Positions 5,749-28,487 of a stretch of DNA of 63,793 bases are shown piece after piece (positions within the stretch are counted from its first letter, which is position 1; each line of letters begins with the position of its first letter). The DNA comes from an uncultured Lachnospiraceae bacterium (lineage in GTDB: Bacteria; Bacillota; Clostridia; Lachnospirales; Lachnospiraceae): contig CALWSF010000019.1 of assembly GCA_944384125.1 (NCBI GenBank), positions 1-63,793 on the forward strand, in the 5' to 3' direction. The position numbers and the translations under genes are program-made. Below the pieces are notes generated by a model. The model did not search any database. It saw only the letters and a list, made by a program, of their open reading frames with translations, and had not been told where the DNA came from.

Positions 5749-5751
5749 ACT

Positions 5752-7433: not shown

Positions 7434-7470
7434 AATATTAAAGATGTTATCCTATAACATCTTTAATATC
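7434..7470. repeat. Near-perfect inverted repeat spanning the HAD stop codon
   Basis: ATATTAAAGATGTTAT (7435-7450) is matched by its exact reverse complement (7454-7469) around a 3-base loop. The stem is 16 bp and covers the last codons and TAA stop of the HAD gene. No T-run follows on the minus strand, so it is not a standard terminator. A second small palindrome, TACACAC-T-GTGTGTA, lies about 10 bases further on. Confidence 0.75.
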
Positions 7471-9501
7471 TGTCATTCTACCAAAAAAAGGATCTTCAAC
7501 CTTAAGCGTCAGGAAATCCTCATCACGAATCTGAATCTTATTTACAAGTGCTAACAATTTTTCATTCAGTTTCTTGTTCCCTTTTCTTGCTGACTCTGGT
7601 AATATTCCCAGATAATCTTCAAAAAATTGTAAAATACCACTCTGTACTTTATCTAAAGTTCTCAAATCTTGCTCAGTTCTTGTTTCCTTAGCAAATACAG
7701 GATTTCCGTCATTATCCATCTCACTCATCATGGGATAAGGAGATGTCAGCATCGTTTCCAATATATAATAATTATCAAAAATAGCACTGGTATTTTTCTC
7801 TTCATCAGAATAGAAGGGTTCTATATCCAATCCCTTATCAGTCATAAATTCAGGCTCCAGTTGAAGAAAATAAAATCCTTTCATGTGCTGAGTAAATAAT
7901 TTCTGTATATACATCTGAGATGTTCCCTTTGCAACAAAATCAAATATTGCAATATTATTATCCCTAATACCTAATTTATCAATATATTTCTGATAATTCT
8001 TCTTTTGCTGCTTGGCTTTTTTTAATATCTCCGCTTTTCTGTCAATCTTGCTTATATCTTCTACATAAATACCAAATCGAACTTTGAGCTCGTCTTCTGG
8101 TGTTCCAAAATATTTCATGCTGTCAACATAGTCAATATCTTCCTCAGATTCCATACCAGCACGTATTGCAGCTGTTCTTGATGAAAGGAAATAATAAGAG
8201 TCTCTAGTTTCATCAAGCATCCTATAGAGCCTTCCTATAAGAAAACCATCTCTTGCCCCAAAAAAAATCTGAGTAAATCCCTGTTCTTTGACACAGTCTT
8301 TCATCCATAAAGTAAAGTCTGTAAACATAGGTGCGCAGAAAAGATATCCTATATCTGATGCCTCCTTCACGAATAATTTCCGTTCTTCATCATCAAACCA
8401 GAAAGGATTATTAAAAATATGTGTCAAGAACAGTCCTATTTTTACACGATCTGAAATGCTATCAATCTCACTTTCTGTTCCAAGTCCCCCAAGGGAATCA
8501 AATAAATCAGCCGCGCTATAAAGTCTATATGCTTCAATATTGTGACTTTTGGCCTTTTCTATGTCAGCAAATTCATCATCTCCAATATGAAGTATAGATT
8601 TTCCTTTATACTTATTTGCTAAGATATGAAATAATTCCTGCGTCTTGGCTGTTCCATATTCACATGACACAAATAGTTCATCATATCCGATTATCTCAAA
8701 TCTTTCCAATATCTGAACTATCTGGGCTTTTGAATAGTAACTGTCAGTAGTAATGACTACTTTTTTTCCCATAGCAATCGCTGACTTAAAGATTTTCTTA
8801 ACAGCATCTCTAACAGCTAAAAGTGAAAAATCCAGCTTCCATTCCAATTCTGCTAATTCAACAGCATTGATAAAACTTCCTCCTATCATTCTCAAGACAA
8901 TATCATAAATCTTTTCAAGCCCGGGAGGTTTATCTTTAGACAGTACCTTTTCTGCATATAACCTGTTTTTTGCAAAATCTGGGATATAAATCCCTATATC
9001 TCTCAGCTGAAAATCCAGCAATTCAAACACATCGACGTATGATTTGGTTTTTCTCATTACCAACGTATCGAAAAGATCAAAACTGATAATGTCTGAGGCA
9101 TTAATCTTATCTAACAACTCCAGTCTGGAAGCTCCATTTACATTTTTAAAATCATAAGCGACTGCTGCTGTATTTAAAAGATCCTGTCCCCTTACATCAA
9201 ATAAAGCAATATCATTCTCACAACAAAAACCACGTATTTTTTTGGTAATAGCTTTACATGAGCCTGGACGAGCTACCACAATAATCAGTTCAACTTCTTT
9301 TGCCAGAATATCTGCAATAGGAATGATTGGAAAACCGTACATCATACCATCTATGCGAAAGCCATCCAAAAGACCAACAACAGAAACTTCTCTTCCATAC
9401 TCACTAAGAAAACGTTCTGTTTCTGTACCAAGGCCATAAAGGGCTATTTTTTTATTTTGATATTCTTTCAGTACATCCTTGATATTAGACATCTGATTCA
9501 T
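7447..9501 (-). CDS. HAD-superfamily hydrolase with N-terminal Rossmann-like domain (COG5610-like)
   Basis: A 684-aa, three-part soluble protein. Residues about 16-100 are the Rossmann-like domain shared across this island (KKIALYGLGTETERFL, then VVGLLDG, then ELIIVVAR). Residues about 135-335 are a HAD domain with motif I SFDLFDTLV, motif II ITTDS and motif IV HIGDDEFADIEKA. The last 330 residues follow the pattern seen after HAD domains in surface-polysaccharide clusters (FFGARDGFLIGRLY). A phosphatase or phosphotransferase role on a sugar or polyol phosphate is likely but the substrate is unknown. The ATG at 9501 has AGGAAAGG upstream and overlaps the preceding glycosyltransferase gene by 17 bases. 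A decayed paralogue tail lies just downstream. Confidence 0.85.
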   Translation of the reverse strand: MNQMSNIKDVLKEYQNKKIALYGLGTETERFLSEYGREVSVVGLLDGFRIDGMMYGFPIIPIADILAKEVELIIVVARPGSCKAITKKIRGFCCENDIALFDVRGQDLLNTAAVAYDFKNVNGASRLELLDKINASDIISFDLFDTLVMRKTKSYVDVFELLDFQLRDIGIYIPDFAKNRLYAEKVLSKDKPPGLEKIYDIVLRMIGGSFINAVELAELEWKLDFSLLAVRDAVKKIFKSAIAMGKKVVITTDSYYSKAQIVQILERFEIIGYDELFVSCEYGTAKTQELFHILANKYKGKSILHIGDDEFADIEKAKSHNIEAYRLYSAADLFDSLGGLGTESEIDSISDRVKIGLFLTHIFNNPFWFDDEERKLFVKEASDIGYLFCAPMFTDFTLWMKDCVKEQGFTQIFFGARDGFLIGRLYRMLDETRDSYYFLSSRTAAIRAGMESEEDIDYVDSMKYFGTPEDELKVRFGIYVEDISKIDRKAEILKKAKQQKKNYQKYIDKLGIRDNNIAIFDFVAKGTSQMYIQKLFTQHMKGFYFLQLEPEFMTDKGLDIEPFYSDEEKNTSAIFDNYYILETMLTSPYPMMSEMDNDGNPVFAKETRTEQDLRTLDKVQSGILQFFEDYLGILPESARKGNKKLNEKLLALVNKIQIRDEDFLTLKVEDPFFGRMTDIKDVIG

Positions 9502-10060
9502 TTTTTGCCTTTCCTATCATACCTTCAACATACATAAGCAGATTTTGTTTAAATGCTTCCTCTGAAAAAAACTTTTCATATATTTCATAGGCTTTGTTTC
9601 CCATCTCCTTAATATTTTCAAAGTGACGAACGCTCCAGATTATCTTTTCTGCCAGCTCTGTTGTATTTTCTGCAGCAAAAATAAGACCGTCATATCCATC
9701 ACGAATATAAGCAGATGTTCCAGCAGCATCCGATACTATACATGGAACTCGATGCATCATTGCCTCTGCACATACTGTTGGCATCGGATCCTCTCTCGAC
9801 GGGCAAATCAGCATATCTGACTTTATTAAAAGTTCATGTACTTCTCTTCTTGTTACAGTTCCAAGCATTTTTACATTCTTCATATCAGAAATCCTGCTTT
9901 CAAGCTTCTGCGCCATCAGAGACGTTTTCTGTCCTATCAAAATAAACTCAGCAGCGTCACCTATATCAGCTGGCAGCTGCTCAATCGCATCTAACAATAA
10001 ATCCTGACCTTTTCTCCACTCAATATATCCAATCGTAACAAACTTCATTCTATACGTCAT
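9485..10060 (-). CDS. GT4 glycosyltransferase, C-terminal (nucleotide-sugar) half
   Basis: About 191 aa comprising only the C-terminal Rossmann half of a GT4 (GT-B fold) glycosyltransferase: FVTIGYIEWRKGQDLLL, FILIGQ, VKMLGTV, and the donor-binding segment CPSREDPMPTVCAEAMM followed by PCIVSD and GYDGLIF. The N-terminal acceptor half is in the preceding gene in another frame. I place the start at ATG 10060, since GGAG lies 6 bases upstream and the overlap with the upstream stop is 11 bases. That favours a real two-gene split with coupled translation. A frameshift (mutation or sequencing error) in a once single gene remains possible. Confidence 0.8.
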   Translation of the reverse strand: MTYRMKFVTIGYIEWRKGQDLLLDAIEQLPADIGDAAEFILIGQKTSLMAQKLESRISDMKNVKMLGTVTRREVHELLIKSDMLICPSREDPMPTVCAEAMMHRVPCIVSDAAGTSAYIRDGYDGLIFAAENTTELAEKIIWSVRHFENIKEMGNKAYEIYEKFFSEEAFKQNLLMYVEGMIGKAKNESDV

Positions 10061-10841
10061 TTGAAACTCCATATATTAAATCACTGATCGGTACATCTGG
10101 CTTATACTTTTCCACTGCATTTCTTGGCACCGGACCAACGGATAAGATCTTCATATTTTTTGTACTAATACTGTTCAATCTGTCAGCTTTGATTCCCTCA
10201 TAAAAAAATGGAGAATCATGAAGCCACCATATTACCTGCATATCTTCATTCCTCTCTGAAAGGAAAACGTGATAATTTATCGTATTACAGATTACAAGAT
10301 CATATTTATTCGTCCATGTGAGTTCTTTCATAGTACATATCTGCAGCCGTACATCAATGATTACTGGTATCAAACTGTCTTCCAGCTTACTTCGCAGACT
10401 GCCGTCCAACATAGAGCCATATACTACCTCATATCCGGCATTTTTTAAGAGCACTGCCGCATGATACAGTGCCAATGCCGGACCTCCGAGTGTCAAATCA
10501 TGGGACAGGAGCAATATACTCTTTGTCTGGATCTTCTTTGTTAAACTAAGTGCCGCCTCTTTCTGAAATAATTCATGCAAATCATAAAAATGAAATATGA
10601 CATTGCCTGGAACACCCAGCTCCACAAGCTGTTTTCTCATCTCCGTCACATAGAAACTCAGGATAACAATAGCATCATATTCTAGTTTAGTCACATCGGC
10701 AGGTGCAATTACAAGATATCCGTCCAGTATTGTTCCTTGTTTATTTACATCATTATCAAGGATTGCTGCTACTTCTCGCTCTGCAAACCAGCGAGAATAT
10801 CGTTTATAATAATCTCCAGTGCCAAAAAGAACATATCTCAT
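10050..10841 (-). CDS. Rossmann-like domain plus GT4 glycosyltransferase N-terminal half
   Basis: A 263-aa protein. Residues about 1-90 are the island's shared Rossmann-like domain (MRYVLFGTGDYYKRY, AAILDNDVNKQGTI, DAIVILSFY). Residues about 105-263 match the acceptor-binding half of GT4 glycosyltransferases (SILLLSHDLTLGGPALALYH, DLVICNT, VIWWLHDSP) and stop at LIYGVSNDV, exactly where the linker to the donor half would come. The donor half is encoded immediately downstream. The ATG at 10841 directly follows the TAA of the FkbM gene. The two halves together would form a normal-length GT4 enzyme with an N-terminal extension. Confidence 0.8.
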   Translation of the reverse strand: MRYVLFGTGDYYKRYSRWFAEREVAAILDNDVNKQGTILDGYLVIAPADVTKLEYDAIVILSFYVTEMRKQLVELGVPGNVIFHFYDLHELFQKEAALSLTKKIQTKSILLLSHDLTLGGPALALYHAAVLLKNAGYEVVYGSMLDGSLRSKLEDSLIPVIIDVRLQICTMKELTWTNKYDLVICNTINYHVFLSERNEDMQVIWWLHDSPFFYEGIKADRLNSISTKNMKILSVGPVPRNAVEKYKPDVPISDLIYGVSNDV

Positions 10842-11882
10842 TTAAAACACTCCCGGTATCGCATAAAGTACAGTGTCATACCACGAAAATGAATAATGCC
10901 GTAAATATAATCTATATCCTCCATATACACTTAAAATATATTCAGGAATATCAAGTATATCCTCCGGTTTATGATATACACTTACTGCCAAAACAGGATG
11001 ATCCCGCTTAATAGTATTTTCTGCACCATGCAGTGCTTCTAGTTCTGCTCCCTCTATATCCATTTTAATCATAGCTACTTCTTCATCTGCCGTTTCAATA
11101 TCTATGGAAGTAGTGGGAATCATATTGTCTGAAAAATCCTTATTAATATGAGAGCCAAAGCTGCCGTTTGAAGAAAAAGATATTGTTCCCTCTCCTTTCC
11201 AAAGCGCTTTAGGTATGATTCGATATTTTTTTTCATAGCCTTTTAATGTCTCACAAATCCGCTTAATATTAAGTATATCCGGCTCAAAATTGATAGAATC
11301 TCCATGAAACTTCTCAAAATAGCGTTTACTGTCGCTTCCATCAAAACATCCACCATCAATAAATAGTCCGCTTTTTAAAATCATCGGTATTTCTTTATCA
11401 AAATAGATTCTTCCCTCCGTAAGTTCATATATTACCTTTCCGGCATCAATGATATTCTCTTTTGGAACACCTGCCATAATACATTGATCAATCATTGCAT
11501 CCCTGCTCTTAAATGAAGAAATAACAATTTTTTCACTGTTATAATTCTTCATAAAAGAAGATGCCTCTACAATGGGAATCCCGGCCTTATCAGACTGATT
11601 CGGCGCATTATCTATAATGCATGTCCAGGGATATCCCTTGAATTCTCTAAGAAGCGTATCACCCCAGATTCCATTTCCAAAAAGAACAACCGCCTCTCCC
11701 CGCAGTTCTTGCATCAAACTGCAAAAACATTTCCACTCACTGCTCGCTCTGACCGACTCTTTCAGTATATGCTCCAGATAGAAAGCAGAGCCGGAAATAT
11801 TATAATTTAATCGGTTAAGATAAATTCTTCTGGAAAGATCATCACCTATATATGAATAAATTTTCTTAGCAACCTGCAGCAC
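10842..11882 (-). CDS. FkbM-family methyltransferase with Rossmann-like domain
   Basis: A 346-aa protein. Residues about 62-135 carry the shared Rossmann-like domain (AVVLFGNGIWGDTLL, TCIIDNA, GIPIVEASSF, EKIVISSF). Residues about 170-320 are an FkbM methyltransferase: GLFIDGGCFDGSDS for the SAM loop, then INFEPD and MIKMDIEGAELEAL. FkbM enzymes usually O-methylate sugars or glycans. The start is a GTG at 11882 preceded by AAAGGAG about 10 bases upstream. It is one of two FkbM genes in the island, and they are not close copies of each other. Confidence 0.85.
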   Translation of the reverse strand: MLQVAKKIYSYIGDDLSRRIYLNRLNYNISGSAFYLEHILKESVRASSEWKCFCSLMQELRGEAVVLFGNGIWGDTLLREFKGYPWTCIIDNAPNQSDKAGIPIVEASSFMKNYNSEKIVISSFKSRDAMIDQCIMAGVPKENIIDAGKVIYELTEGRIYFDKEIPMILKSGLFIDGGCFDGSDSKRYFEKFHGDSINFEPDILNIKRICETLKGYEKKYRIIPKALWKGEGTISFSSNGSFGSHINKDFSDNMIPTTSIDIETADEEVAMIKMDIEGAELEALHGAENTIKRDHPVLAVSVYHKPEDILDIPEYILSVYGGYRLYLRHYSFSWYDTVLYAIPGVF

Positions 11883-11927
11883 TCAAATAATCTCCTTTAA
11901 CTGTTAATACAATCGAACCGTATGCTG

Positions 11928-13463
11928 TCATTCAGCTATGGAATTTATAACATCTCCCAAATATAATATTCTTCCTCTCGCTTTCTGTTTTAACATATCT
12001 CTTATTTCTTCATAATCATACGCTGTCACAATAATACAATCTATATCTGGAAATGCTTCTTCTGGCCGGTATATTTTAAACTCTTCTCCAAACTGTCCTA
12101 CATACCGGTCAATTCCAAAAGCCGGTTCTATCCCTTCTTTTCTGGCCTGGATAAGAAGATGCTTGCCCAATGAAGCCATGCCGTATATTGCAAAATTTCT
12201 ATACCCATTCTGATAGAGATAGTCTTTGATTGCAAACTTGCCTTCCTGCTCTAAAAAAAGCCATCGATCCGCTATCTCGAATAATTCCTTAAATTTTCTG
12301 GCATTCCTGTCAGACTCTCTGTTATATTCCAACGTTTTTTCATCTGTGACTTTAGCATATTCTTTTATATCCGAAGATGTGATCTGTACCCTGGCAGCCC
12401 TGACAGCTTCCAGCATTTTATAACCTCTGGCACAATCTGGTTCCAGATACATTCCTTCCCCCCATTCATTCCATGCGTTGATAAACACAAACTCATTCCC
12501 ACTGGCGATACTCTTCTGCATTAATTTTATTAAACCGTCCCTGAATACCTCAGGTCTGACGTTGGTAAAACATTCTCCGCTTGTCCCACGTCTTGGCGTA
12601 TCGTCATAGTCTGCCACTCCAGAATAAAATGTTTTCATGCCATAAACAGAATCAGCGTTCAGGCAGGCATCCCATATATTATCATAATCATAACAGCGGA
12701 CACCATTTTTAATATTCACATGCTTGTTATCATTGAGCTGATTCATAGCATGCCGCGGTTCATACACAAGGGCGGCGTCCAGGCAGTCATTACATCCGCC
12801 CATTCTAGCCCCAATTAAATACAGCCCTTCCATCCCCTCTTGTTTCGCCAGATTCCTCCAGGTATGAACCATATCCTTCAAACATCTGATATCTTCCGGA
12901 CTGTAAAACAAAAACACTGGCTTCCCATCAATCTTTATATATCTCTCATCTTTAAAAAACGGGAGAAGATAGTAAAAATGCTTTTCCCATTCTTTTTCAG
13001 AACCATAGTCCTGAGCAATCAGCACCCCTGAACTCTTTTCTTTATCGACCGAATCATACTTTTCGCTCCAGACATTCCCAGGGATTCTGCTCCATGATCT
13101 AATCCATGGCTCACTTGCCCAGTTAAAGCAAAATGGCATATCAATATCTTTCCACCTCAAAAGCTGTTCCGCCGGTTTCTCCAATTCCAATGTTCCATCT
13201 TTGAAATAGTAATGATAAAAACAAAAGCCATCAATACCATACTCTTTCGCCAGAGCCGCCTGCTTTTTTACCACAGCCTTCGTCAAAAGATCATAGTACT
13301 CTTCATCTACAGGGACACGGGGCTGGAGATGTCCTTCAAAATAAGCCTCGGCTGTTTTAACAGTCTCCCAATCTGTAAATCCCTCTCCCCACCATTTGTC
13401 ATTATCGCAAGTACGATGAAATTGCGGCAGATATACTGCCAATATCTTAGGTAACGCCATCAT
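11928..13463 (-). CDS. WbsX-family (GH99-like) glycosyltransferase with C-terminal Rossmann-like domain
   Basis: A 511-aa protein. Residues about 5-350 match the WbsX/GH99-like family of polysaccharide clusters (AVYLPQFHRTCDNDKWWGEG, FCFYHYYF, FCFNWASEPW, NAWNEWGEGMYLEPD). Residues about 425-505 are the shared Rossmann-like domain at the C-terminus (RNFAIYGMASLGKHLL, AFGIDRY, DCIIVTAYD). WbsX proteins are regarded as glycosyltransferases from genetic context; their chemistry is little studied. The start overlaps the stop of the upstream methyltransferase (ATGATGG), giving coupled translation. Confidence 0.82.
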   Translation of the reverse strand: MMALPKILAVYLPQFHRTCDNDKWWGEGFTDWETVKTAEAYFEGHLQPRVPVDEEYYDLLTKAVVKKQAALAKEYGIDGFCFYHYYFKDGTLELEKPAEQLLRWKDIDMPFCFNWASEPWIRSWSRIPGNVWSEKYDSVDKEKSSGVLIAQDYGSEKEWEKHFYYLLPFFKDERYIKIDGKPVFLFYSPEDIRCLKDMVHTWRNLAKQEGMEGLYLIGARMGGCNDCLDAALVYEPRHAMNQLNDNKHVNIKNGVRCYDYDNIWDACLNADSVYGMKTFYSGVADYDDTPRRGTSGECFTNVRPEVFRDGLIKLMQKSIASGNEFVFINAWNEWGEGMYLEPDCARGYKMLEAVRAARVQITSSDIKEYAKVTDEKTLEYNRESDRNARKFKELFEIADRWLFLEQEGKFAIKDYLYQNGYRNFAIYGMASLGKHLLIQARKEGIEPAFGIDRYVGQFGEEFKIYRPEEAFPDIDCIIVTAYDYEEIRDMLKQKARGRILYLGDVINSIAE

Positions 13464-14545
13464 CCATTCACCCGCCTAACTGCTGCATATACGATCAACG
13501 GATAATACTTATCATTTACGTTAAAATCTTCCTCTCTTAAGTCCTCCTGGCATAATCCGGAAAGATGTGCGCATACTGTCTTTACATTGCCATAACTTCC
13601 CATGCTCAATATCTCAAACTTGCCCGGCTCGTCAAACATCTTCTTAAAAGCGTCCATATTATAATTGAAAGTACATCCATAATGATCCATACATCTTCTT
13701 GAATTCTGCGATATACCATTACATGTTAAAAGTACAACTCCGCCTGGTTTTAACAGTCTGTATATATTTTCTGCAACTGCCTTTGTATCATACAGATACA
13801 TTAATGTCTGCGTACAGATAAAACAATCTGCAAGCTTTTCTCTTATCCCTTCTCCTGTTTCCAGATTTGCAAGAAAGTCTACTCCAGGCAGCTGTGAACT
13901 TACATCCATAACCATTGAAACAGCATCATGGCTTCCATATGCTTTTGTATAGCTGTTATCCTCAATTTCAAGTACAGTACCATGTATGAATTGTTTATTC
14001 GCATTCAAAAATGTTTCGATATAAAAACGATCTATAGGAGTCCCCCGCTCTGTTCCGAATTGTGCGCTCACAGGAACAGGACTCATTGAGGATACTGCAT
14101 CAATAATTGGATAGGTCTCCCTGTAAAATCTTCGCAGCAAAACTCTCCATTCATTTTCATTATGAACTTTCAGTTTCTCATCCTGAAAAGTTGTAACGAT
14201 TACTTCGTCACGCTCAAATACAATACTTTTAACACAGTGAGAGATAGCCTCATCATTCTCATATAAACCAGGTATCTCATAGGGAAGTACGAACCTTTCC
14301 GGATCAAATCCCATCTCCACCAAAAAACGCCACATACCCATAAATTTCACAGAGACAAGCAAAATACGTTCCGTACCATCCTTCACTGCATTCGCAGGAT
14401 TTATCACAGGAATATTTCCATATTTGCTCATTGATTCTTGTTCGACACTGCTATCCCATATTTCTTTTACTCTGTAAAGAGAGAAAATAGAATTTTTTTT
14501 CTCCTCAAAATATTTCCCTCTTCCAAACAAGATTACGTTGTCCAT
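13460..14545 (-). CDS. Class I SAM-dependent methyltransferase with N-terminal Rossmann-like domain
   Basis: A 361-aa protein. The first 75 residues follow the island's shared domain pattern in a diverged form (NVILFGRGKYFEEKK, NIPVINPANAV, ERILLVSVK). Residues about 180-330 look like a Methyltransf_11-type domain: HGTVLEIEDNSYTKAYG in place of the SAM loop, then DCFICTQTLMYLYD and LLKPGGVVLLTCNG. The target is probably a sugar or glycan hydroxyl or amine, but this is unknown. ATG at 14545 follows GGATGTGAG. It is tightly packed between the deacetylase and WbsX genes. Confidence 0.75.
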   Translation of the reverse strand: MDNVILFGRGKYFEEKKNSIFSLYRVKEIWDSSVEQESMSKYGNIPVINPANAVKDGTERILLVSVKFMGMWRFLVEMGFDPERFVLPYEIPGLYENDEAISHCVKSIVFERDEVIVTTFQDEKLKVHNENEWRVLLRRFYRETYPIIDAVSSMSPVPVSAQFGTERGTPIDRFYIETFLNANKQFIHGTVLEIEDNSYTKAYGSHDAVSMVMDVSSQLPGVDFLANLETGEGIREKLADCFICTQTLMYLYDTKAVAENIYRLLKPGGVVLLTCNGISQNSRRCMDHYGCTFNYNMDAFKKMFDEPGKFEILSMGSYGNVKTVCAHLSGLCQEDLREEDFNVNDKYYPLIVYAAVRRVNG

Positions 14546-14549
14546 ATTC

Positions 14550-15596
14550 TCACATCCAATCTACCAATTCACTTAAAGAGTACACTGTCTTATAGCCCAT
14601 TTGAATCAAATCATCCCTAATGTCACTATAATAAAATACAGCTGTTACAATCACTGCATCTGTCTGCCGGTTTCCACATTCTGGAGAAACAATCCTTACG
14701 CCGTCTTCTGACCGCTTTGCAGGATTTTTATCTAAAACAAAATCAATTTCTACTGCTTCGGAAGCCAGTTCCGTGCACAGTAATTGTCCCAGTTCAGCAT
14801 ATCCATATACTGACACCTTTTTTATACCGTTCTCTACAAGCACTTTCGCAATCCTGCCGCCTCTGCTCTTAGCTTTCATCCATCTTACAAGAAGCTGATA
14901 AAATTGAATATGCTTTTGAAGCTTTTGTTCAAGTCCTCTGATTTCGTTATTTTCCTCGTCATCAAAATCTGGGACTTCCTGATAAACCTCTATATATTTG
15001 CCCGGCATTCTGTTTTGTAATGCTCTGTATCCAGCATTCAGCATTGACATCTCATCGTAAGGCAGCACTTTCGTCTGAGATTTATGAAAACGGATCAGCA
15101 ATTTCTTTTTTTCTATATCGCCTGTAATATCCATCCAATGCGTCGGTTCGCTTAATTGTTTATGTACTTCATACAAGAATACTCTTGGACGATGCCCATT
15201 TCCCCTGTTGCTTAAAGCATTCTTAACCGCTAAATATGCGCCTGTGTGATCTGGATGTTCGTCTTTATCTCCAGTTACAAGAACGTAATCAAATCTGGAA
15301 AAATCATACTGCATCAGGCAATCCGCATGATTCAGGAGCGTCCCATCTGGAATATCTAAGAAATGATAATCCGAAATGCCAAGCTGTTTCATTTCATTGA
15401 TAAATTCACGTTTTCTAAGCGCTGCTTCTTTTATCCTGCAATGCTCTCCCTGTCCGATCGCACCGTCTGTCAATATAAGGACGCTGCATCTGCTGCTATA
15501 ACGCAGCAGCACTCCACCTGCACCAATACATTCATCGTCAGGGTGTGGGGCAATAATTAATATATTCTCATAATCTTTTATATCCAGAATCTGCAT
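14550..15596 (-). CDS. PIG-L (LmbE-like) deacetylase with C-terminal Rossmann-like domain
   Basis: A 348-aa protein. Residues about 12-200 are a PIG-L family zinc N-deacetylase with the metal motif APHPDDECIGAGG and DKDEHPDHTGAYLA. Such enzymes remove N-acetyl groups from amino sugars. Residues about 255-345 are the shared Rossmann-like domain (KKVSVYGYAELGQLL, DFVLDKNPAKRSEDG, DAVIVTAVFYYSD). I chose ATG at 15596, 4 bases after the Stealth stop, because MQILDIKDYENILIIAP is the natural family start. An upstream in-frame start would overlap the Stealth gene by 50 bases. Confidence 0.85.
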   Translation of the reverse strand: MQILDIKDYENILIIAPHPDDECIGAGGVLLRYSSRCSVLILTDGAIGQGEHCRIKEAALRKREFINEMKQLGISDYHFLDIPDGTLLNHADCLMQYDFSRFDYVLVTGDKDEHPDHTGAYLAVKNALSNRGNGHRPRVFLYEVHKQLSEPTHWMDITGDIEKKKLLIRFHKSQTKVLPYDEMSMLNAGYRALQNRMPGKYIEVYQEVPDFDDEENNEIRGLEQKLQKHIQFYQLLVRWMKAKSRGGRIAKVLVENGIKKVSVYGYAELGQLLCTELASEAVEIDFVLDKNPAKRSEDGVRIVSPECGNRQTDAVIVTAVFYYSDIRDDLIQMGYKTVYSLSELVDWM

Positions 15597-15600
15597 AACA

Positions 15601-16596
15601 TCATATTTCAAATGACGACTTGTCAGGAAGGATTTCCTGCAGCGCCACATTGATCTCCCGCTTTATCTGATCAAAACCATTTGTCACAGCTTCATTCAGG
15701 CTGATGATCGGATACCGTTGATTCCGAATATCGTCAGCAGCTTCAATATAATTACTGTGATCTAAAATATAAAGTTTACCCTGATACTTTGCAGGCACAA
15801 AATTTCCAGAACATATTTGCCACATGGAAATCAGCCTCTGCGTCACATCAGAATACGCCCTGAATCTGTTTCTTGATGCCATATCAAGCATATATGGTTC
15901 TTTTTCCCATATCTCTTTTAAAACCGACTTTCTCATTGGCATGGCTTCATGCGGATACACGAAGGATTCAAAATTATTCCAAAAGCTCAGATTTTCATTC
16001 TGTTTAAGACGTTCTCCATAAATCGGTGAAAACCACTTTTCACGATTGTCATTCACAACCTGTTTCTTGTCAAAATTCCTGTTCAGAATAACCATATTAT
16101 TCACACAGGCATAATTCATTTGAAGATCCAGTCCCTTTTCAGCTTTTAATATGAAATGCGTCTCAACTGCTTCCTCACATGGAAGCCCGTTTTTAAAATA
16201 GTATTCTTCAGGAATATCCCTCAGTGGAAACAGATCATCATTAAACAAAATGAACCGTTCGCTCAACGCTTCAATCCGCCAATAATTCATCTCAATCGTA
16301 TTAGAATTGAAGGTAGGAAGATATTTCTTTGGGATATAATCACTGTGCTTGATAACCCTCAGTCTCTTATTTGAAGTATCGATCCAGTCTGGCAGATGTC
16401 CCCATGTTACCAGGAACACCCGATGAATCCATGGCATATATTTTTCTATTCCACGGAATATATATTGAAGATTATCCCATGACTGATATCTGTTAGATTC
16501 AATACTTCCTGTCTTATATTGTTTCAATTCCGCCAGCCAGGATGGATCTGTTCCATCTACCCAAGGTAAAACTAAATCTATATTTTTATCCATCAT
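15601..16596 (-). CDS. Stealth-family sugar-phosphate transferase
   Basis: A 331-aa protein with the Stealth conserved regions in order: CR1 IDLVLPWVDGTDPSW, CR2 with NLQYIFRGIEKYMPW, FLVTWGHLPDWI, LPTFNSNTIEMNYWRI and FILFNDDLFPLRD, then later weaker regions. Stealth proteins transfer hexose-1-phosphate from UDP-sugars to build phosphodiester-linked capsule. Its presence suggests a phosphoglycan product. Unlike its neighbours it lacks the shared Rossmann-like domain. Two ATG codons lie together (16596 and 16593), with no strong ribosome site for either. Confidence 0.85.
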   Translation of the reverse strand: MMDKNIDLVLPWVDGTDPSWLAELKQYKTGSIESNRYQSWDNLQYIFRGIEKYMPWIHRVFLVTWGHLPDWIDTSNKRLRVIKHSDYIPKKYLPTFNSNTIEMNYWRIEALSERFILFNDDLFPLRDIPEEYYFKNGLPCEEAVETHFILKAEKGLDLQMNYACVNNMVILNRNFDKKQVVNDNREKWFSPIYGERLKQNENLSFWNNFESFVYPHEAMPMRKSVLKEIWEKEPYMLDMASRNRFRAYSDVTQRLISMWQICSGNFVPAKYQGKLYILDHSNYIEAADDIRNQRYPIISLNEAVTNGFDQIKREINVALQEILPDKSSFEI

Positions 16597-16668
16597 ATTT
16601 GCTCTATACCATTAAAATTTACCATTTATAATTCAGCCCTTATATATATTCTAACTTCTCTCTGCCAT

Positions 16669-17817
16669 CTACTTAAAAACAGCAATACTGCATTCATCCC
16701 CTATCGGGCTTTTATGAAGTCTTATATTTTTTTCTCTTTCAAAGTCTGCTACTGCCTGAGCAACCCCTGGCAACTCCGGATGAAAATAGTCATGCAGTAA
16801 AATGCAGCCGCCTTCTGTCAGCCTGTCCCAGAAGAAGTGTAACGCAGCCAACATAGGTTTATATAAATCCATATCAAGGTTTACAAAGCAAAACCGATCC
16901 TCAACATTTTCAGCGCTTTCCGGAAAATATCCTTTTTTTATAACGATCTTTTCAGGAACACTCATTTTCCTCATAACAGTTTCAATACTTGCATAAGAGA
17001 AACGCCCGACCTGATTAAATTCGCCATTTAAAAATGCTGTATTGCTTAATTTACGTTCTGCCTGGACATCCTCCTCTGCGAAGCCTTCAAATGTATCAAA
17101 CAAATAAAGGACGCGATCAGGAAAATATTCATTTAAGAATTTTGCAGAATCTCCTGTGCATACTCCGCATTCAGCTACATTTCCTTCCAATTGTTGCAAA
17201 TTTACCCAATGTGCAAAGTCTTTTATAAATAAAAAACGAGCAGAAGCGCTATGATACTTCATAAAATCTCCTATGTACCTGATTCTGCATTCGTCTATAT
17301 TCATTTCTATTATTCTATGTTTGATATTTTTATAATCTTTCTCGTCAACTGCAACAATAACAGAACCAATATAGGGGATTCGAACCAGTTCTTCAGGAGA
17401 AATCACAGGAATTCCATGATATTGTTTCCCTGCCATTTTTTCTTTATCATCAACAATCATGTCAACTGTACATTCAAATAAGGGGAAAGTTAAAAATGAT
17501 TTTTCAATCTCTCCTGTTCCCCACACAACAACTCTGGGACAGCTTGCTGTTGTCAGAATTTTTTCTTCCGGAATGGATAACTCCAATAGCTGATGCTTTA
17601 TTTTCTCTTTCTGATTGCTGCTATAAACTGCAATCACAATGTAATCAAAATCCACATTTTTCAATTCCTGAGGAGTGATCACAGGCTTTCCATACAAATT
17701 GTCTCCCCAACGTGTACTATCATTATCTGTGAACGCAATTATATCTCCCTCTATCGCCGGGTTCAATGCATAACTCTGCCCCTGATTCCCAGCTCCAAAC
17801 ATCACTAATTTTTTCAT
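16669..17817 (-). CDS. TylF-like methyltransferase with two tandem Rossmann-like domains
   Basis: A 382-aa protein. Residues about 1-95 and 97-190 are two successive copies of the shared domain. The first has KLVMFGAGNQGQSYA, IAFTDNDSTRWGDN and YIVIAVYS; the second has RVVVWGTGEIEKSFL, DMIVDDKEKMAG and SVIVAVDE. Residues about 195-382 match the macrocin O-methyltransferase (TylF/MycF) family: VAECGVCTGDSAKFL, LYLFDTFEGFAEED, FVNLDMDLYKPM, ILLHDYFHPELPG. That family methylates sugar hydroxyls with a metal ion and SAM. ATG at 17817, with AAAGGAA about 12 bases upstream. Confidence 0.85.
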   Translation of the reverse strand: MKKLVMFGAGNQGQSYALNPAIEGDIIAFTDNDSTRWGDNLYGKPVITPQELKNVDFDYIVIAVYSSNQKEKIKHQLLELSIPEEKILTTASCPRVVVWGTGEIEKSFLTFPLFECTVDMIVDDKEKMAGKQYHGIPVISPEELVRIPYIGSVIVAVDEKDYKNIKHRIIEMNIDECRIRYIGDFMKYHSASARFLFIKDFAHWVNLQQLEGNVAECGVCTGDSAKFLNEYFPDRVLYLFDTFEGFAEEDVQAERKLSNTAFLNGEFNQVGRFSYASIETVMRKMSVPEKIVIKKGYFPESAENVEDRFCFVNLDMDLYKPMLAALHFFWDRLTEGGCILLHDYFHPELPGVAQAVADFEREKNIRLHKSPIGDECSIAVFK

Positions 17818-17912
17818 TTTATAGTTATTCCTTTCACTTGAAACAAAAATGATCTGTACTTACCTTTTTATAAAATGACAAAAATATCTATCCTTTTTTA
17901 TATTATATAAAA

Positions 17913-19001
17913 TCATACTCCACTCTTATAACCATATACAAGCGCCTTATTCAAGCACGTTGAAATATAGGTTTGCCTCAACGGTGTGGGAAACCACATA
18001 TATCCTTTACTTACATGATGAGAAATCCCCTTTTGATCCATAAAACTTTCAACCAAAGTTCTATCAAAATCACTGTGATAGACACAGACTGCCAACTTTA
18101 AATCAGATGTTTTTTCTAAAAGTTTACTTGCCCCTATTAAACCATCCCACTCGTTTCCTTCAATATCCATCTTAATAAAATTAACGCAATCATCAATGAC
18201 CGAATCCAAAGTGATAAAAGGAAACTCATCATAAGAGTTCACAAACCCTTTTATAATGATTACCTTATCAGAATACTGCTTAAATGTAAGTTTCAGCGCT
18301 TGAATCCACTGTTCATCCGCTTCTATAATATATATCTTTTTTGCTTTTTCAATAACATCCAGAGAAAAGATCCCCTCCGCTGCTCCAACATCTACTACAA
18401 CGTCACCGTCTTTTACATTAAACTCTTCTGTTAAATATTTATGCGGCGATTTCTGATCCTGTTCTAACAATATAGAGCGATAATAATCTGCTGCTGACTC
18501 CTTTGTTATATATTGCTTGGAAAAATACATTCTATGTCCATTGTATATTACATAAAAATGCTCATATATCTCATCCCAGAAAACCTGAACTTCTTTATTA
18601 TAATAAGATTCTGCAAAAGAGTAATTAAATACAGATAATCCATTTTCTTTAATATATTGTATCACTTCTTGCAGTTCTTGATCCTGACAGTTATGATACC
18701 TTTTCAATATACTTTCTTTATAAAAGTAATTTTTATTTTCAACACATTCCGAATACTGCGGATACTCTCTGACAATCTGATCATAAATTTCCTGGTATGC
18801 ATCAGAAAGTACTACAATTCGATCTGGTCTTTTTTCCTGTAGAACATCAGGTGAGTAAATCTCTTTTCCCATAAAAACAGTTCCCTGTTTGCTTTTATCA
18901 TTGTCTATAAATCCTTGAATACAATAATTTTCCAGTGTCAGACATTGTTGCATTACCTGTTTTGCAACCATACCTGTTCCCCAAAGAAATAGATTTAACA
19001 T
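17913..19001 (-). CDS. FkbM-family methyltransferase with N-terminal Rossmann-like domain
   Basis: A 362-aa protein. Residues about 1-90 are the shared domain (LNLFLWGTGMVAKQVM, QGFIDNDKSKQGTVF, DRIVVLSDAYQEIY). Residues about 195-330 are an FkbM methyltransferase (VVVDVGAAEGIFSLDVI, YIIEADEQWI, FIKMDIEGNEWDGL). ATG at 19001 follows GAGGAAAATATA. The intergenic stretch on its downstream side is 95 bases and shows no clear hairpin, so it is probably still within the operon. Confidence 0.85.
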   Translation of the reverse strand: MLNLFLWGTGMVAKQVMQQCLTLENYCIQGFIDNDKSKQGTVFMGKEIYSPDVLQEKRPDRIVVLSDAYQEIYDQIVREYPQYSECVENKNYFYKESILKRYHNCQDQELQEVIQYIKENGLSVFNYSFAESYYNKEVQVFWDEIYEHFYVIYNGHRMYFSKQYITKESAADYYRSILLEQDQKSPHKYLTEEFNVKDGDVVVDVGAAEGIFSLDVIEKAKKIYIIEADEQWIQALKLTFKQYSDKVIIIKGFVNSYDEFPFITLDSVIDDCVNFIKMDIEGNEWDGLIGASKLLEKTSDLKLAVCVYHSDFDRTLVESFMDQKGISHHVSKGYMWFPTPLRQTYISTCLNKALVYGYKSGV

Positions 19002-19011
19002 TATATTTTCC

Positions 19012-20211
19012 TCAACTTATTTCACTGACAATCTGTTCTCTGTAATCGGAACAACATACTTCAGAGGGAATCGGATGTCCCGCAACCTCAGCAACCATCT
19101 TTCCCTCTATCTCTGTCCTTTCATTTACACCTCTCAAGAACCATTCATATTCATTATCCAACTGACCTATATCGATAGCCTGAATTCCCTGAAGCGCCAG
19201 ATCATATGCAAGAATAGTAGCTGTTGGTCCCAAAGAAATACAAACTACACAGTCCTTTGTAACATTTCTCAAAACCTCTCCCAGAATCTCATCATACCTG
19301 TTCCATGCATTGGTTGCCGGACATAAGATTCTTCTGATAATTTCAGCCCCCTGCAATAAATCATTTCCCACTCCAAATCTGGCGTAGCGGCCCTCCACAA
19401 TCAGCAGATGCCTGTTCTTCCAGATTTTCTGAAACATTTGAAAAATTTCTTTTCCATATTCTTTATTTCGATAAATCATATAAGGTCTTGTTACATAAGC
19501 ATCATAATAAATTGTTTCTCTTCCCAGCAGTCCAAGAATCGCTTCCCGCTTTTCTCCCTCCATATACAGTCGAATCTCATCAGCTGCTGCTTCTGTATAG
19601 TCGTCTAAATGCTGAAAGTTTTGTGCTATTCCAATCAATATTCTTTTATTCTTATTATTTAACACTTCTTTTAATCGTTTTTTTAATACTTTATCATAAC
19701 TTTGAAACCAAGGTTTCCCTGATTCTAACATAATATTAAATTCCCCGTCTCCAAATCGACACAAGGAATATCTGTGATTGATGATTTCTTCCAGACACAA
19801 TTTTGCAGATAAAATCTGAGGTACATATTTAAGTCCCCATTCAAAAGGAGCGCTGTCCAACCTCGCCCTGTAAATATCTCCTCTTCTCTTTTCTTCTAAA
19901 ATCCGTTCCATCCTGCTGTTCAATATTGTTTTAACAGCTTCATCCTCCCAATAGCAGAGTACCTTATCCCTGGGAATCAACATTTCTCTGCATTTTTCTT
20001 TGATAGAAGAAAAGTTTATAACGGATATGACAATCATATCATATTCAATAGAACTTATTTCTTCCGGAGAGATCAGAGGGATTGTTTGATTCCACATAGT
20101 TCCCTGCTTTTGGGGATCAGAGTCAATGAGCGCAAGAATTTCATTCTCCGCTCTGATTCCTCTGATAACATAATCACAATAGGAGCCAGCTCCCCATATA
20201 AGCACCCTCAT
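19012..20211 (-). CDS. GT-D fold glycosyltransferase (DUF1792-like) with N-terminal Rossmann-like domain
   Basis: A 399-aa protein. Residues about 1-90 are the shared domain (MRVLIWGAGSYCDYVI, LALIDSDPQKQGTMW, YDMIVISVINF). Residues about 130-385 match DUF1792, the GT-D fold family that includes the third glucosyltransferase acting on a pneumococcal serine-rich adhesin: SLCRFGDGEFNIM, CVVCISLGPTATILAYDLA and IDIGQLDNEYEWFL. In that precedent the enzyme extends a glycan on a protein, which fits a protein-glycosylation role here. ATG at 20211; the upstream ribosome site is weak. Confidence 0.82.
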   Translation of the reverse strand: MRVLIWGAGSYCDYVIRGIRAENEILALIDSDPQKQGTMWNQTIPLISPEEISSIEYDMIVISVINFSSIKEKCREMLIPRDKVLCYWEDEAVKTILNSRMERILEEKRRGDIYRARLDSAPFEWGLKYVPQILSAKLCLEEIINHRYSLCRFGDGEFNIMLESGKPWFQSYDKVLKKRLKEVLNNKNKRILIGIAQNFQHLDDYTEAAADEIRLYMEGEKREAILGLLGRETIYYDAYVTRPYMIYRNKEYGKEIFQMFQKIWKNRHLLIVEGRYARFGVGNDLLQGAEIIRRILCPATNAWNRYDEILGEVLRNVTKDCVVCISLGPTATILAYDLALQGIQAIDIGQLDNEYEWFLRGVNERTEIEGKMVAEVAGHPIPSEVCCSDYREQIVSEIS

Positions 20212-20293
20212 GATTTATCATCATCCCTTTCTCTTTCCTAGATTGCAGAATACCACCGTATAGCTTCTATTTATTTACTTGCCTTCCACAATT

Positions 20294-21568
20294 TCACTCC
20301 ATATCCTGCAAGATTTTCCGTTCAAACCACAGTGGAGTTATAAAATGATAAACAGCTTTTTCAGCAAACATCTCCAATAACTCTTCTTCCTTATTCTGAC
20401 TGATTCCAATTACCAGCAAGATTCCCCGTTCTCTGGCAACTTCATCGAGACTGAACGTATCATTTGAGATTTCTTTTTCATCTTTTCGAGAAAGCACATA
20501 TCCTGCAATCTTAACTCCCAGAGCATTCAGTGATTTTTTAACAAACTCAGAATATTTTCCTTTTCCCATGATGTAGATATGACCGGCACCGCAGATTTTC
20601 TTTTTTTCTTCTTCTGTCAATTCCGGTTCTCCATAAAACCAGTTTAAGACTCGATTGATTTCTTTGAGTAAGCCTGGATTTTCTGGCAAAAATATATTTA
20701 TTTTCCTCTGATTCGCTTTATATGCTGTTTCTATTACTGTGTATAGATAACCAACAATCTTATGCCAGATCAGCTGATCAAACATGTTATCAGAAAATAC
20801 ATTATATTCAATCAGAAACCTGGCAAATTTTATCTGATGCTCTATTGCTTTTGTCGTATCTGATGTATATTCCATACACCATGATCCTTCATGCATATAT
20901 CGATATACAGACATCACTCTGTCCATATAATATATTTTCCCCAGCATAAGAGCATATAACTGCATCGGCACATCTCCAACATCACATTTGGGAAAACCAT
21001 TTTCTCTTAAAAATATTTCTTTTCTCATTACCAGAGAAGCAGTTCCTAAATTTCCCTTAGGTTGTAATATAATTTCTTCCGGGGTCAGATACCCATCCCC
21101 TTCCCTGAATGTGGCCAGAGAATGGGTCTGATCTGCGCAATGCAAAATTTCAAATGCATGTGTTACCATGGAACATTCTGGGTGACATTCTAAAAATTCA
21201 ACCTGTTTTTGCAACTTATTTTCATCACTCCAGTAATCATCGCCCTCACACAAAGCAATATACTTTCCTGGCAGAAAACGCTTGTACAACTGTTTCATAA
21301 GACTGTATCGTTCAGCACTTTTATATGTATTGACAGGAGAAATAAAAGCCTGAATCAAATCAGGATACGTCTGTTCATACTTTCGTACAATATCCGATGT
21401 CCCATCTGTTGAAGCATCATCAAAAATAAAAATATTAAATCTGTAAGCTGTTTTTTGCTTTAAAAATCCTTTTAACGCATCTTCTATATATGCTACATGA
21501 TTGTAAGTCAGACAGAAAATTGATAATTCTATTTCTTTATTCACATCCACCATTTCTCTCAATATCAT
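20294..21568 (-). CDS. GT2 glycosyltransferase with C-terminal Rossmann-like domain
   Basis: A 424-aa protein. Residues about 12-240 are a GT-A fold family 2 transferase (LSIFCLTYNHVAYIEDAL, IFIFDDASTDGTSDIV, YIALCEGDDYWSD). Residues about 330-420 are the shared domain at the C-terminus (HIYIMGKGKYSEFVKKSL, IAGYVLSRKDEKE, GILLVIGISQNK). The start is uncertain: ATG at 21568 and ATG at 21553 are both possible, and both overlap the end of the radical SAM gene. No hydrophobic segment is seen, so it is soluble or peripheral. Confidence 0.83.
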   Translation of the reverse strand: MILREMVDVNKEIELSIFCLTYNHVAYIEDALKGFLKQKTAYRFNIFIFDDASTDGTSDIVRKYEQTYPDLIQAFISPVNTYKSAERYSLMKQLYKRFLPGKYIALCEGDDYWSDENKLQKQVEFLECHPECSMVTHAFEILHCADQTHSLATFREGDGYLTPEEIILQPKGNLGTASLVMRKEIFLRENGFPKCDVGDVPMQLYALMLGKIYYMDRVMSVYRYMHEGSWCMEYTSDTTKAIEHQIKFARFLIEYNVFSDNMFDQLIWHKIVGYLYTVIETAYKANQRKINIFLPENPGLLKEINRVLNWFYGEPELTEEEKKKICGAGHIYIMGKGKYSEFVKKSLNALGVKIAGYVLSRKDEKEISNDTFSLDEVARERGILLVIGISQNKEEELLEMFAEKAVYHFITPLWFERKILQDME

Positions 21569-22931
21569 CCATCATCTCTGAAAGTAACATGACTTTTCCT
21601 TTATACTGCATACGTTTTAAATTTTCTTTAATCCGTTCAGCAAATGTGTCTACCGTAATAATAATCAGATCAAATGAAGCCAGTAAATCCTCTTCTGGTT
21701 TTCTTATAATAATTCCATCCTGTCCCTTTGGCTCAATATAAGTATCAAAAACAGTATTAACTTCCACACCATCATTCTTTAAAATTTTTACACACGCATA
21801 AGCTACTTTTCCTGCGCCATATAAAGCAATTTTTTTAATGTTATGATGTGCAAAAAACTTAGCTAATGTTTCAGAAGCGTTTTCCAATAAAACCAGCCTG
21901 GACAAAGCATACCCTCTTCTCTTTTCCAGAATATACGGATTTTCTTTTTGCAGTGATTTTGTTTCACCTTGCCATTTCCATACTTTTGGATGATGCAGAA
22001 CAGGATCACTCATTACTTTTACAAACTCATCATAGTAGGGATGATATTCATTCCGAATATCATAAAACCATTCAGTTGCAGTATCCATCGAACCTCCTGG
22101 TTCAAAAAATCTCAGCCGAATAGTATCCATCTCATATTTTTCCAAACATGTCTTGACAAACTCAGGCATTTCCCTGAAATTCCTTTCGCATACCACAGTA
22201 CCAATTTCTAATTCATTAATAATCCCCTGTTTGCGCAGTTCACTGATAAAAGCTAAATTATCCATTACCTGCTTTACTGGAAGTTTTGTTCCTGACAAAT
22301 ACTGATATGTGTCTTCATTAAAACTATGTACCGTAACTGCGACTGATAAATCATGTTCTCCTAATTTTTCTATTTTCTTCCAATTTACCTCATTAAATAA
22401 AGAACCATTAGTCTCAATAGAGATTTTCACATCATCCTTCAATTCTTCCTCTTGTATCAATCTAATTATAGAATCACTGCAAAAAAATTCACCTGCACCG
22501 TTAGATGAAACTGTTTCTAAAAATGGAAATATTTTTTTTATTTCTTTTTCAATTTTTATATAATTTTCTTTTTCGCAATTACAAGGTATATAATTCTCTG
22601 AACGGCAGAATCGGCAAACATAATTACATTGTAACTGATAACTCAAGCTACAAAACTTAGGAAGGGATGGCACTTCATAATCTACCAATATCTCTTCCAA
22701 CTTATCATTAGCTAAATATGGACATTGGAGATTACTACAATACCTATACGATCCATCCAACATTGATTCTCTAAACTTCTGAGCCAACTCTCCATTCCAT
22801 AACTCTTCGATTGTATTTTCAGTCAGACATCCAATAAAATAATTTGACCATCCACAAATACGAACTTTTCCATCATTTTCATTAATCCAAATATCATTTA
22901 AACCTCTTCTACACACTTTTGCATTCTTCAT
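21537..22931 (-). CDS. Radical SAM protein with SPASM-like N-terminus and C-terminal Rossmann-like domain
   Basis: A 464-aa protein. Residues about 5-72 resemble a SPASM auxiliary-cluster segment (VRICGW, TIEELWNGELAQKFRESM, YCSNLQCPYL; Cys 7, 26, 35, 65, 70). The radical SAM core follows with CNYVCRFC (Cys 102, 106, 109). SPASM normally follows the core, so the order is reversed. Residues about 365-455 are the shared Rossmann-like domain (KKIALYGAGKVAYACV, VNTVFDTYIEPKGQDG, DLIIITVDTF). The reaction is unknown; radical epimerisation, dehydration or methylation of a sugar are options. I chose ATG 22931 because AGAGGAA lies upstream. Confidence 0.8.
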   Translation of the reverse strand: MKNAKVCRRGLNDIWINENDGKVRICGWSNYFIGCLTENTIEELWNGELAQKFRESMLDGSYRYCSNLQCPYLANDKLEEILVDYEVPSLPKFCSLSYQLQCNYVCRFCRSENYIPCNCEKENYIKIEKEIKKIFPFLETVSSNGAGEFFCSDSIIRLIQEEELKDDVKISIETNGSLFNEVNWKKIEKLGEHDLSVAVTVHSFNEDTYQYLSGTKLPVKQVMDNLAFISELRKQGIINELEIGTVVCERNFREMPEFVKTCLEKYEMDTIRLRFFEPGGSMDTATEWFYDIRNEYHPYYDEFVKVMSDPVLHHPKVWKWQGETKSLQKENPYILEKRRGYALSRLVLLENASETLAKFFAHHNIKKIALYGAGKVAYACVKILKNDGVEVNTVFDTYIEPKGQDGIIIRKPEEDLLASFDLIIITVDTFAERIKENLKRMQYKGKVMLLSEMMDDIERNGGCE

Positions 22932-22961: not shown

Positions 22962-24005
22962 TTATACACAATTCAAAAAAATTGATAGTGGTACTTCTAT
23001 TTCATTTAATACTTTTCTTTTTTGATATCGAATTTCTTTATAATCTTCTTCTATATTAGGCCATTCAACCTGATGTATATGTGCGCCTTCTTCTTCCAAA
23101 TATACTATTTCCGTTCCAGAGTGCATAGCGTAGTAAATTCTATTTCCAGATTTACAGTATGCGGTATATTTGCCCATACATGAAGGAGCAGTGTAGCATA
23201 TACCTTCTAATTCCTCCGCTTCTCTTATCGTTCCGTCCGTAAGAGATATTTCTATAATCTTGTCATCATATACTGGGAACATCCACAATTTTGAACCAAC
23301 TATGCACATTGAAAAATATCCCTTGTCCACATTGCTTAATTTGCATAAAAAATAACTACGGAAATTTTCATATTGATACAATTGATTAAAATTATCTAAC
23401 AAAATAAGGCCTTCCCCAAAATGGATGTAATTTATTATCTGGGATTCCATAAAAGGAAGTGTTTTCTTTGAAACTATTGACATATTAGTTAAATCGACTG
23501 TCACAATTTCATTTGACATTGTTGAAAAAAGTTCTAAAAAACTCCCTGACGTAAAGGAATTCTGTGCATAGTACTGTACCATACCTTCTCTCTTTTCTTT
23601 GATATCCAATATGTTAACTCTTTCATACGTTTTCTTTTCTAAATCAATCTGTACTATTTCATAATGATAAATTGGTACTATTATAAGTTTTCCATTGACT
23701 ACACCTGCATAAGAAAACATATTCAAATTCATATTACCACAATTAATCTTTATCGTTTTAACATGGTTATCTGCCAAGTCATATTCAAGTATTTCATTCC
23801 CGCGGTTAACTGTAAAAAACAGACTGTTTCTCCACCTGCACAGAACTGCTGATAGCCCCCTTTCGTCTATAGAACCATCTATTTCAGGCTGCATATACTC
23901 AACTTTATTATTATGCAAATCCATTCTCATAAAATGTCCGCCTATTTCAGTTATCCAATATAAATAATTATTATATTCTATTAACGAAATAAACCATCTA
24001 TCCAT
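22962..24005 (-). CDS. Soluble beta-propeller-like protein of unknown function
   Basis: A 347-aa protein I cannot assign to a named family. It has repeated short strands with a hydrophobic-aromatic pattern and turns of the type LYWITEIGGHFMRMDL, LFFTVNRGNEILEYDL, LIIVPIYHYEIVQIDL, LWMFPVYDDKIIEISL and RIYYAMHSGTEIVYL. That spacing of about 45 residues suggests a beta-propeller of six or seven blades. There is no signal peptide, membrane segment or shared Rossmann-like domain. ATG 24005 has AAGGA about 10 bases upstream; a TTG ten codons earlier has none. Its AT-rich composition groups it with the next genes upstream. A glycan-binding or scaffold role is speculation. Confidence 0.6.
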   Translation of the reverse strand: MDRWFISLIEYNNYLYWITEIGGHFMRMDLHNNKVEYMQPEIDGSIDERGLSAVLCRWRNSLFFTVNRGNEILEYDLADNHVKTIKINCGNMNLNMFSYAGVVNGKLIIVPIYHYEIVQIDLEKKTYERVNILDIKEKREGMVQYYAQNSFTSGSFLELFSTMSNEIVTVDLTNMSIVSKKTLPFMESQIINYIHFGEGLILLDNFNQLYQYENFRSYFLCKLSNVDKGYFSMCIVGSKLWMFPVYDDKIIEISLTDGTIREAEELEGICYTAPSCMGKYTAYCKSGNRIYYAMHSGTEIVYLEEEGAHIHQVEWPNIEEDYKEIRYQKRKVLNEIEVPLSIFLNCV

Positions 24006-24920: not shown

Positions 24921-24969
24921 AATATCTCTCCTTTTCATGCATTAATATTTTACACAATTTATATTTACT

Positions 24970-25995: not shown

Positions 25996-26010
25996 ATCAT
26001 TGCTCCCACA

Positions 26011-27207: not shown

Positions 27208-27279
27208 TATCCTTACTTCCTTAATTATATACAAACACTTTCATTAAATAGAGCCATATAGTTATATTTAACTGTACAC

Positions 27280-28395: not shown

Positions 28396-28487
28396 CCTGC
28401 TATCTCCTGTCTAGTTCTATTTATGTAAATAAACTTTCCATATCTGTTTCTGTTTGCCAGTATAAACAGAGAAGTCATAAAAACATT

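Follow-up and report, generated by a model that had tools for sequence, protein, structure and literature searches.

Why do eleven neighbouring genes for enzymes of several kinds each carry the same small domain? The stretch analysed here, referred to as the window, is 63,793 nt long (contig C19 of genome G000, an uncultured Lachnospiraceae bacterium) and holds a glycan island in which a Rossmann-like domain of ~80 residues, the module, occurs in 12 copies over 11 minus-strand genes. Glycan gene clusters are usually regarded as sets of free enzymes. Judging from sequence comparisons, we find it likeliest, at about an even chance, that the module serves as an interaction tag without catalytic activity, joining the enzymes on one soluble glycan or glycoprotein. 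In the loci sampled, about half of the genes share this one accessory domain, and the protein of solved structure closest to it is itself uncharacterised.

The preliminary description of the window, which had counted twelve copies in eleven genes, was borne out. A profile was built from 623 copies in 78 other loci (the model used to align them had been made in part from window copies), and the top 12 stretches of the window against it were the 12 copies, at 63.5 down to 13.3 bits. The best other window open reading frame (ORF) reached 7.7 bits and the best shuffled ORF 9.5 bits (56 ORFs x 20). With leave-one-out profiles, 11 of the 12 copies scored above all of their 500 shuffles, most narrowly the HAD copy (11.3 vs 5.1 bits) and the WbsX copy (15.8 vs 8.3 bits). 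The copy in the glycosyltransferase family 2 (GT2) gene, the weakest with the 623-copy profile (E 0.02), was missed by its leave-one-out profile, at -2.0 bits vs 9.0 bits for shuffles. When the profile was instead made from the C-terminal modules of eight GT2 relatives, the GT2 tail scored 23.5 bits (E 1.6e-5), and the highest of 2000 shuffles 10.9. We therefore regard this segment as a worn copy and let the count of 12 stand.

The assignment of each copy to one end of its gene was right in all 11 genes, with two corrections: the GT4 enzyme is read in two frames, and the copy in the first FkbM gene starts at residue 65. All copies lie on the minus strand, and scores against the 623-copy profile are given in brackets. 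N-terminal copies are found at 9220..9450 in the HAD-type protein (7447-9501; residues 18-94; 35.3 bits), 10611..10835 in the GT4 gene (10050-10841; 63.5 bits), 14303..14539 in the class I methyltransferase (13460-14545; Pfam Methyltransf_11; 28.9 bits), 18768..18992 in the second FkbM (17913-19001; 60.9 bits) and 19975..20205 in the GT-D transferase (19012-20211; Pfam GT-D; 58.3 bits). The first FkbM methyltransferase (10842-11882; Pfam Methyltransf_21) has its copy at 11466..11690 (residues 65-139; 38.7 bits). C-terminal copies lie at 11985..12197 in WbsX (11928-13463; 55.2 bits), 14589..14819 in the PIG-L deacetylase (14550-15650; Pfam PIG-L; 56.0 bits), 20360..20581 in GT2 (20294-21568; the worn copy, 13.3 bits with the general and 23.5 bits with the GT2-specific profile) and 21600..21833 in the radical SAM/SPASM protein (21537-22949; Pfam Radical_SAM and SPASM; 52.0 bits). 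The TylF gene (16669-17817) holds a tandem of two modules, at 17572..17811 (57.3 bits; over the cut-off for Pfam C2185-like_N) and 17293..17535 (42.2 bits); the other 15 members of the TylF enzyme cluster have one. The GT4 gene as a whole (9485-10841; Pfam Glyco_trans_4_5 and Glycos_transf_1) is split over two overlapping frames, with its C-terminal half at 9485-10072 in the other frame, whereas the 78 loci contain 28 ORFs in which a single frame matches both halves; the split is probably a lesion or an assembly error.

Module-rich neighbourhoods of the kind anticipated in the preliminary description were found elsewhere. The 78 loci, of ~20 kb each, were reached through relatives of WbsX (109 found, the best 80 used); two of the six WbsX search peptides come from the module or from the helix preceding it, and the sample therefore favours module-bearing WbsX. 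Most loci appear to be from Lachnospiraceae, and Selenomonas, Centipeda and Mitsuokella are also represented. The module was present in 623 of their 1293 ORFs of at least 80 amino acids, every one of the 78 loci had at least three module proteins, and 616 of the 623 module genes lie on the same strand as WbsX. Over all loci there were 719 copies, namely 348 C-terminal, 323 N-terminal and 48 in proteins of fewer than 190 amino acids; three islands (L077/G031, L099/G087 and L106/G022, apparently the same records) are counted twice in the 719, not in the 623. When the 656 module proteins were clustered outside the module by single linkage, by which families may be merged or split, they formed 77 clusters, 30 of them with at least three members, and the module sits at either end across these clusters. 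In one cluster, with an MptE-like (Maf-type) scanned member, L106 and L077 (G022 and G031) have an N-terminal module tandem whose second copy is weak (18-27 bits).

When the family was sampled at one genome per genus, 14 of the 100 genomes were module-rich, that is, had at least three profile matches at E 1e-3, a count that includes matches in FlaA1-sized ORFs; their matches were mostly clustered. More widely, a match at E 1e-6 was seen in 28 of 291 genomes of the class and 21 of 299 of the phylum. Across the 141 contigs of the window genome, 11 of the 13 matches to a profile of the 11 clear copies fall in the island. Outside it lie one TylF gene (Pfam) on contig C40 and a weak match (E 0.001) in a 625-codon ORF. 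Five further genomes (G390-G393 and G400) had 21 to 38 module matches each, spread on several contigs.

The module is one family of a known Rossmann-like fold, as had been predicted. The one copy tested, of N-type, gave a fold match to the N-terminal domain of PDB 2g6t, and profile comparison places the module near 3nkl (3e-9), Rex (1e-8) and WbaP (1e-4), with VioB also among the PDB relatives; the suggested kinship to accessory domains of the PglD and coenzyme A-binding types is likewise supported. In an AlphaFold2 model of WbsX, residues 412-511, the module, mostly have a predicted local distance difference test score (pLDDT) of at least 90 and lie behind a 33-residue helix after the barrel. 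Structural comparison of this model returned matches filled by the barrel and was uninformative on the module. With Pfam, C2185-like_N (PF22674) passed its gathering cut-off in one of the 11 window module genes (TylF, 36.6 vs 27 bits), stayed below it in GT4 (19.6 bits) and GT-D (18.5 bits) and had no match at E 1 in the other eight. PglD_N (PF17836) did not pass its cut-off in the window (best 17.6 bits, in GT-D, vs 23.4), Methyltransf_14 matched the second FkbM weakly (19.5 bits, below cut-off), and PF13727 had no match at E 1 among the 11 genes. PglD_N is typically followed by a hexapeptide-repeat acetyltransferase; no hexapeptide repeat was matched in the 11 window genes, and one relative elsewhere joins a hexapeptide transferase to the module. 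The most conserved positions include the glycine loop, where G6 is kept in 94-100%, and G8 in 84-86% of fused copies vs 44% of stand-alones, and an aspartate after strand two, kept in 79-98% of copies.

Which enzymes carry the module was assessed from a random 112 of 576 carriers of at least 200 amino acids, reported as the best 25 of 39 matched families, and from 123 non-carriers drawn at random from the 213 within islands, reported as the best 25 of 118 families. GT2, WbsX and GT4 were the commonest carrier families. Module-bearing enzymes include GT2, GT4, GT8, GT32-like (Gly_transf_sug), GT-D, WbsX, RgpF, LicD, Glyphos_transf, DUF4422, TOD1_MUCI70, NKWYS and an MptE-like protein, whose family formerly took its name from the Maf flagellin transferases. 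Also among them are FkbM, TylF and other methyltransferases, PIG-L, radical SAM and the hexapeptide transferase. No epimerase, dehydratase or nucleotidyltransferase was among the best 25 carrier families, and precursor enzymes do occur among the 123 non-carriers (Epimerase 9, NTP_transf_3 5, NTP_transferase 4, RmlD 4). Carriers thus tend to be enzymes acting on the glycan or acceptor, and some such enzymes have no module. Among the 48 copies in short proteins, 17 are preceded by a hydrophobic helix according to a simple hydropathy threshold, which several more narrowly miss; four run into the locus edge. Clear of both edges there are 37 short module ORFs, in 32 of the 78 loci. In several short proteins the stretch before the module resembles WbsX, which links them in one cluster.

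We put docking first because the module sits on enzymes that need no sugar nucleotide as donor (FkbM, TylF, PIG-L, radical SAM), and because stand-alone and probably membrane-anchored copies exist while precursor makers are missing from the carrier families listed. Also in its favour are the spread of the module over nearly half of the ORFs in the 78 loci and over many enzyme clusters, its near-confinement to one strand, and the dimer roles described below for the related domains of WbaP and EpsZ. The modules would bind protein, and the enzymes working on the same growing, soluble glycan or glycoprotein would be loosely held together, with contacts made from module to module or through a common partner. 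Small stand-alone copies may act as hubs or anchors, and those with a leading hydrophobic helix could hold the assembly at the membrane. The acceptor would be a cytoplasmic protein, in some islands perhaps flagellin. A cytoplasmic acceptor fits because there are almost no polytopic membrane proteins in the islands: between the first and last module, 2 of 836 ORFs of at least 150 amino acids were polytopic, both in one locus, vs 8 of 361 in the flanks (p 0.002). In the window, no ORF within 4696-29846 had three or more hydrophobic segments by hydropathy only, although genes for a flippase or polymerase may be present on other parts of the genome. Since nothing pointed to a flippase, polymerase or permease, the glycan is likely to be assembled on a soluble acceptor.

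Several observations weigh against docking, of which the kept nucleotide-type loop and the lack of island-specific likeness are the strongest. Conservation of the glycine loop and aspartate is expected of a nucleotide site and less of a docking face, and the related WbaP domain is reported to bind uridine nucleotides: on its own it was stabilised by uridine mono-, di- and triphosphate (UMP, UDP and UTP), and the enzyme was inhibited by UMP (available part of PMC10942596). Together with the profile kinship to 3nkl, Rex and WbaP, these points favour the main rival, in which the module senses released UMP, cytidine mono- or diphosphate (CMP, CDP) or a nucleotide sugar and throttles the island enzymes together. 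We consider this rather unlikely, since many carriers, the FkbM, TylF, PIG-L and radical SAM proteins among them, neither use nor release a sugar nucleotide, enzymes that make sugar nucleotides do not appear in the best 25 of 39 carrier families, and the stand-alones lack a catalytic domain that could be throttled and retain G8 in less than half of cases. Docking and sensing need not be mutually exclusive. Glycan-acting enzymes also occur among the 123 non-carriers inside islands (GT4 13, GT2 9, LicD 6, Stealth 6, radical SAM 4, and methyltransferases), and many carriers are glycosyltransferases, so the label 'unrelated enzymes' needs care. As for hubs, 46 of the 78 loci have no short module ORF clear of the edges within 20 kb, the window has no stand-alone module protein, and fragments of longer genes may be among the short ORFs.

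Likeness among copies follows the enzyme: the nearest neighbour of a copy shares its enzyme in 65% of cases (chance 10%) and its island in 2% (chance 1%), which also counts against docking. An island-specific docking code was considered and rejected on these data, as modules of different enzymes within one island are barely more alike than between islands. Paired by position, mean identity within islands was 0.2255 vs 0.218 for CC (0 of 300 permutations as high), 0.2108 vs 0.2073 for NN (11 of 300) and 0.2024 vs 0.2006 for CN (24 of 300). For docking to hold, all modules would have to share one docking face. The same figures, with copies on different enzymes ~20% identical and not co-varying by island, would suit an inert or solubility-type domain spread by recombination among neighbouring genes with no common role. 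We judge this very improbable, as the same site residues are conserved over the 719 copies, short stand-alone versions persist, and the matches in the window genome are concentrated in the island. Anchoring of substrate is a little less improbable, though still a distant prospect. PglD-type N-domains are thought to hold UDP-sugars, and here the module would hold a nucleotide-linked sugar or polyol (e.g. CDP-ribitol) for the adjoining catalytic domain. The sub-cut-off Pfam matches in GT-D and the second FkbM, the CDP-ribitol-type genes read from sequence in the island, VioB among the PDB relatives and the hexapeptide transferase fusion are all consistent with such a role. Against this, the module is also on enzymes whose expected substrate is a glycan and not a sugar nucleotide, and it occurs at either end, twice in one enzyme, alone, and in WbsX behind a long helix. 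Returning to the interaction tag, we tentatively suggest, at somewhat under an even chance, a plug-in system in which a universal tag lets any enzyme family join a common assembly, held at the membrane by stand-alones, and enzymes can be swapped between islands without losing their recruitment. An assembly tag, if true, would account for the way in which large and rapidly changing sets of enzymes work on a single acceptor and take in new members.

Flagellin was found in 14 of 14 module-rich genomes vs 39 of 86 others (Fisher p 5e-5, genomes treated as independent); without G041, whose island is doubtful, the figures are 13 of 13 vs 40 of 87 (p 1e-4). This may bear on flagellin decoration in motile gut bacteria. 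The island of G086 lies between flgN, flgK, flgL, fliW, csrA and flagellin on one side and flaG, fliD and fliS on the other, the flagellin being assigned by Pfam and the other flagellar names read from sequence, and in G042, G022, G031 and G087 the island is on flagellin's contig, 8 to 35 kb away. All 12 genomes searched through loci have flagellin, with listed module matches within ~25 kb in three (G398, G399 and G400). Across the 78 loci, a flagellar gene lay within 20 kb in just two (genes of at least 60 amino acids covered). The window-type island was defined as Stealth, PIG-L, methyltransferase, WbsX, FkbM, GT4, HAD, epimerase, IspD and TarJ, whole or in part; among the matches listed, none of the nine genomes with it had flagellin within 50 kb of a module, the nearest being G396 at 52 kb. 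The window genome itself has four flagellin matches, three over cut-off, on contigs C5 and C112, and 11 flagellar query sequences had no match in the window. Flagellin is kept as a candidate acceptor of the window island and is not adopted.

The fold and a like domain fusion are already known from solved structures. PDB 2g6t of Clostridium acetobutylicum, with C2185-like_N, is listed as an uncharacterised protein, and we found no description of its spread over enzyme islands. The FkbM methyltransferase of Methylobacillus flagellatus (PDB 2py6) is one entry from a distant bacterium whose listing gives no island or function, and the comparison had a high root-mean-square deviation, so a shared domain arrangement is not implied. 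Like the module, PF13727 of WbaP-type phosphoglycosyl transferases and PglF-type dehydratases is a non-catalytic alpha/beta domain in glycan assembly, with distant profile kinship. In WbaP, however, it belongs to one membrane enzyme and lies beside a four-helix bundle, whereas the module is on many enzymes without polytopic parts, at either end, and alone. The WbaP domain is reported to help stabilise the dimer, and nucleotide sensing has been proposed for it (PMC10942596, available part); models of EpsZ put a related domain at the dimer interface (PMC12802240, available part). A survey from 2026 (PMC13317340, available part) describes flagellin glycosylation islands of Clostridium, situated in flagellar loci, whose complement of transferases and modifying enzymes varies. 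Some module islands likewise sit in flagellar loci, unlike the window-type island, which is not beside flagellin, and a word search of the main text in that part of the survey found no mention of such a domain. The domain is thus known, and its island-wide use on many enzymes appears undescribed: as the preliminary description had supposed, no account of this design was found in the literature searched, which was mostly open-access. The module offers a sequence handle for finding such islands.

The remaining genes of the window island, all on the minus strand, have no module. A Stealth-type protein (15601..16596; Pfam Stealth_CR1-3) lies beside PIG-L, and a Stealth gene stands immediately before PIG-L in 8 of the 15 loci L054-L068. 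At one end of the island, 4696..7094 holds precursor genes for a TarJ-like dehydrogenase, an IspD/TarI-like cytidylyltransferase and a ribulose-phosphate epimerase-like (RPE) protein, named from sequence and not by Pfam; the order HAD-RPE-IspD-TarJ recurs in 5 of the same 15 loci (L055, L058, L061, L062 and L068). The island head, at 22962..29846, consists by Pfam of an ORF without a confident match, a formyltransferase, an ATP-grasp protein, a pyridoxal phosphate (PLP) decarboxylase, a DegT aminotransferase and a Glyphos_transf-like gene. Homologues of the DegT and Glyphos_transf-like genes adjoin the flagellar island of G086. The ORF at 22962-24035, beside the radical SAM gene, was considered as the counterpart of the radical SAM neighbour in G086 and rejected, with no match between the two at E 1e-4. 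Two chemotaxis-receptor genes (209-4547) flank the island, one with a hemerythrin domain end (Pfam) and the other named from its translation.

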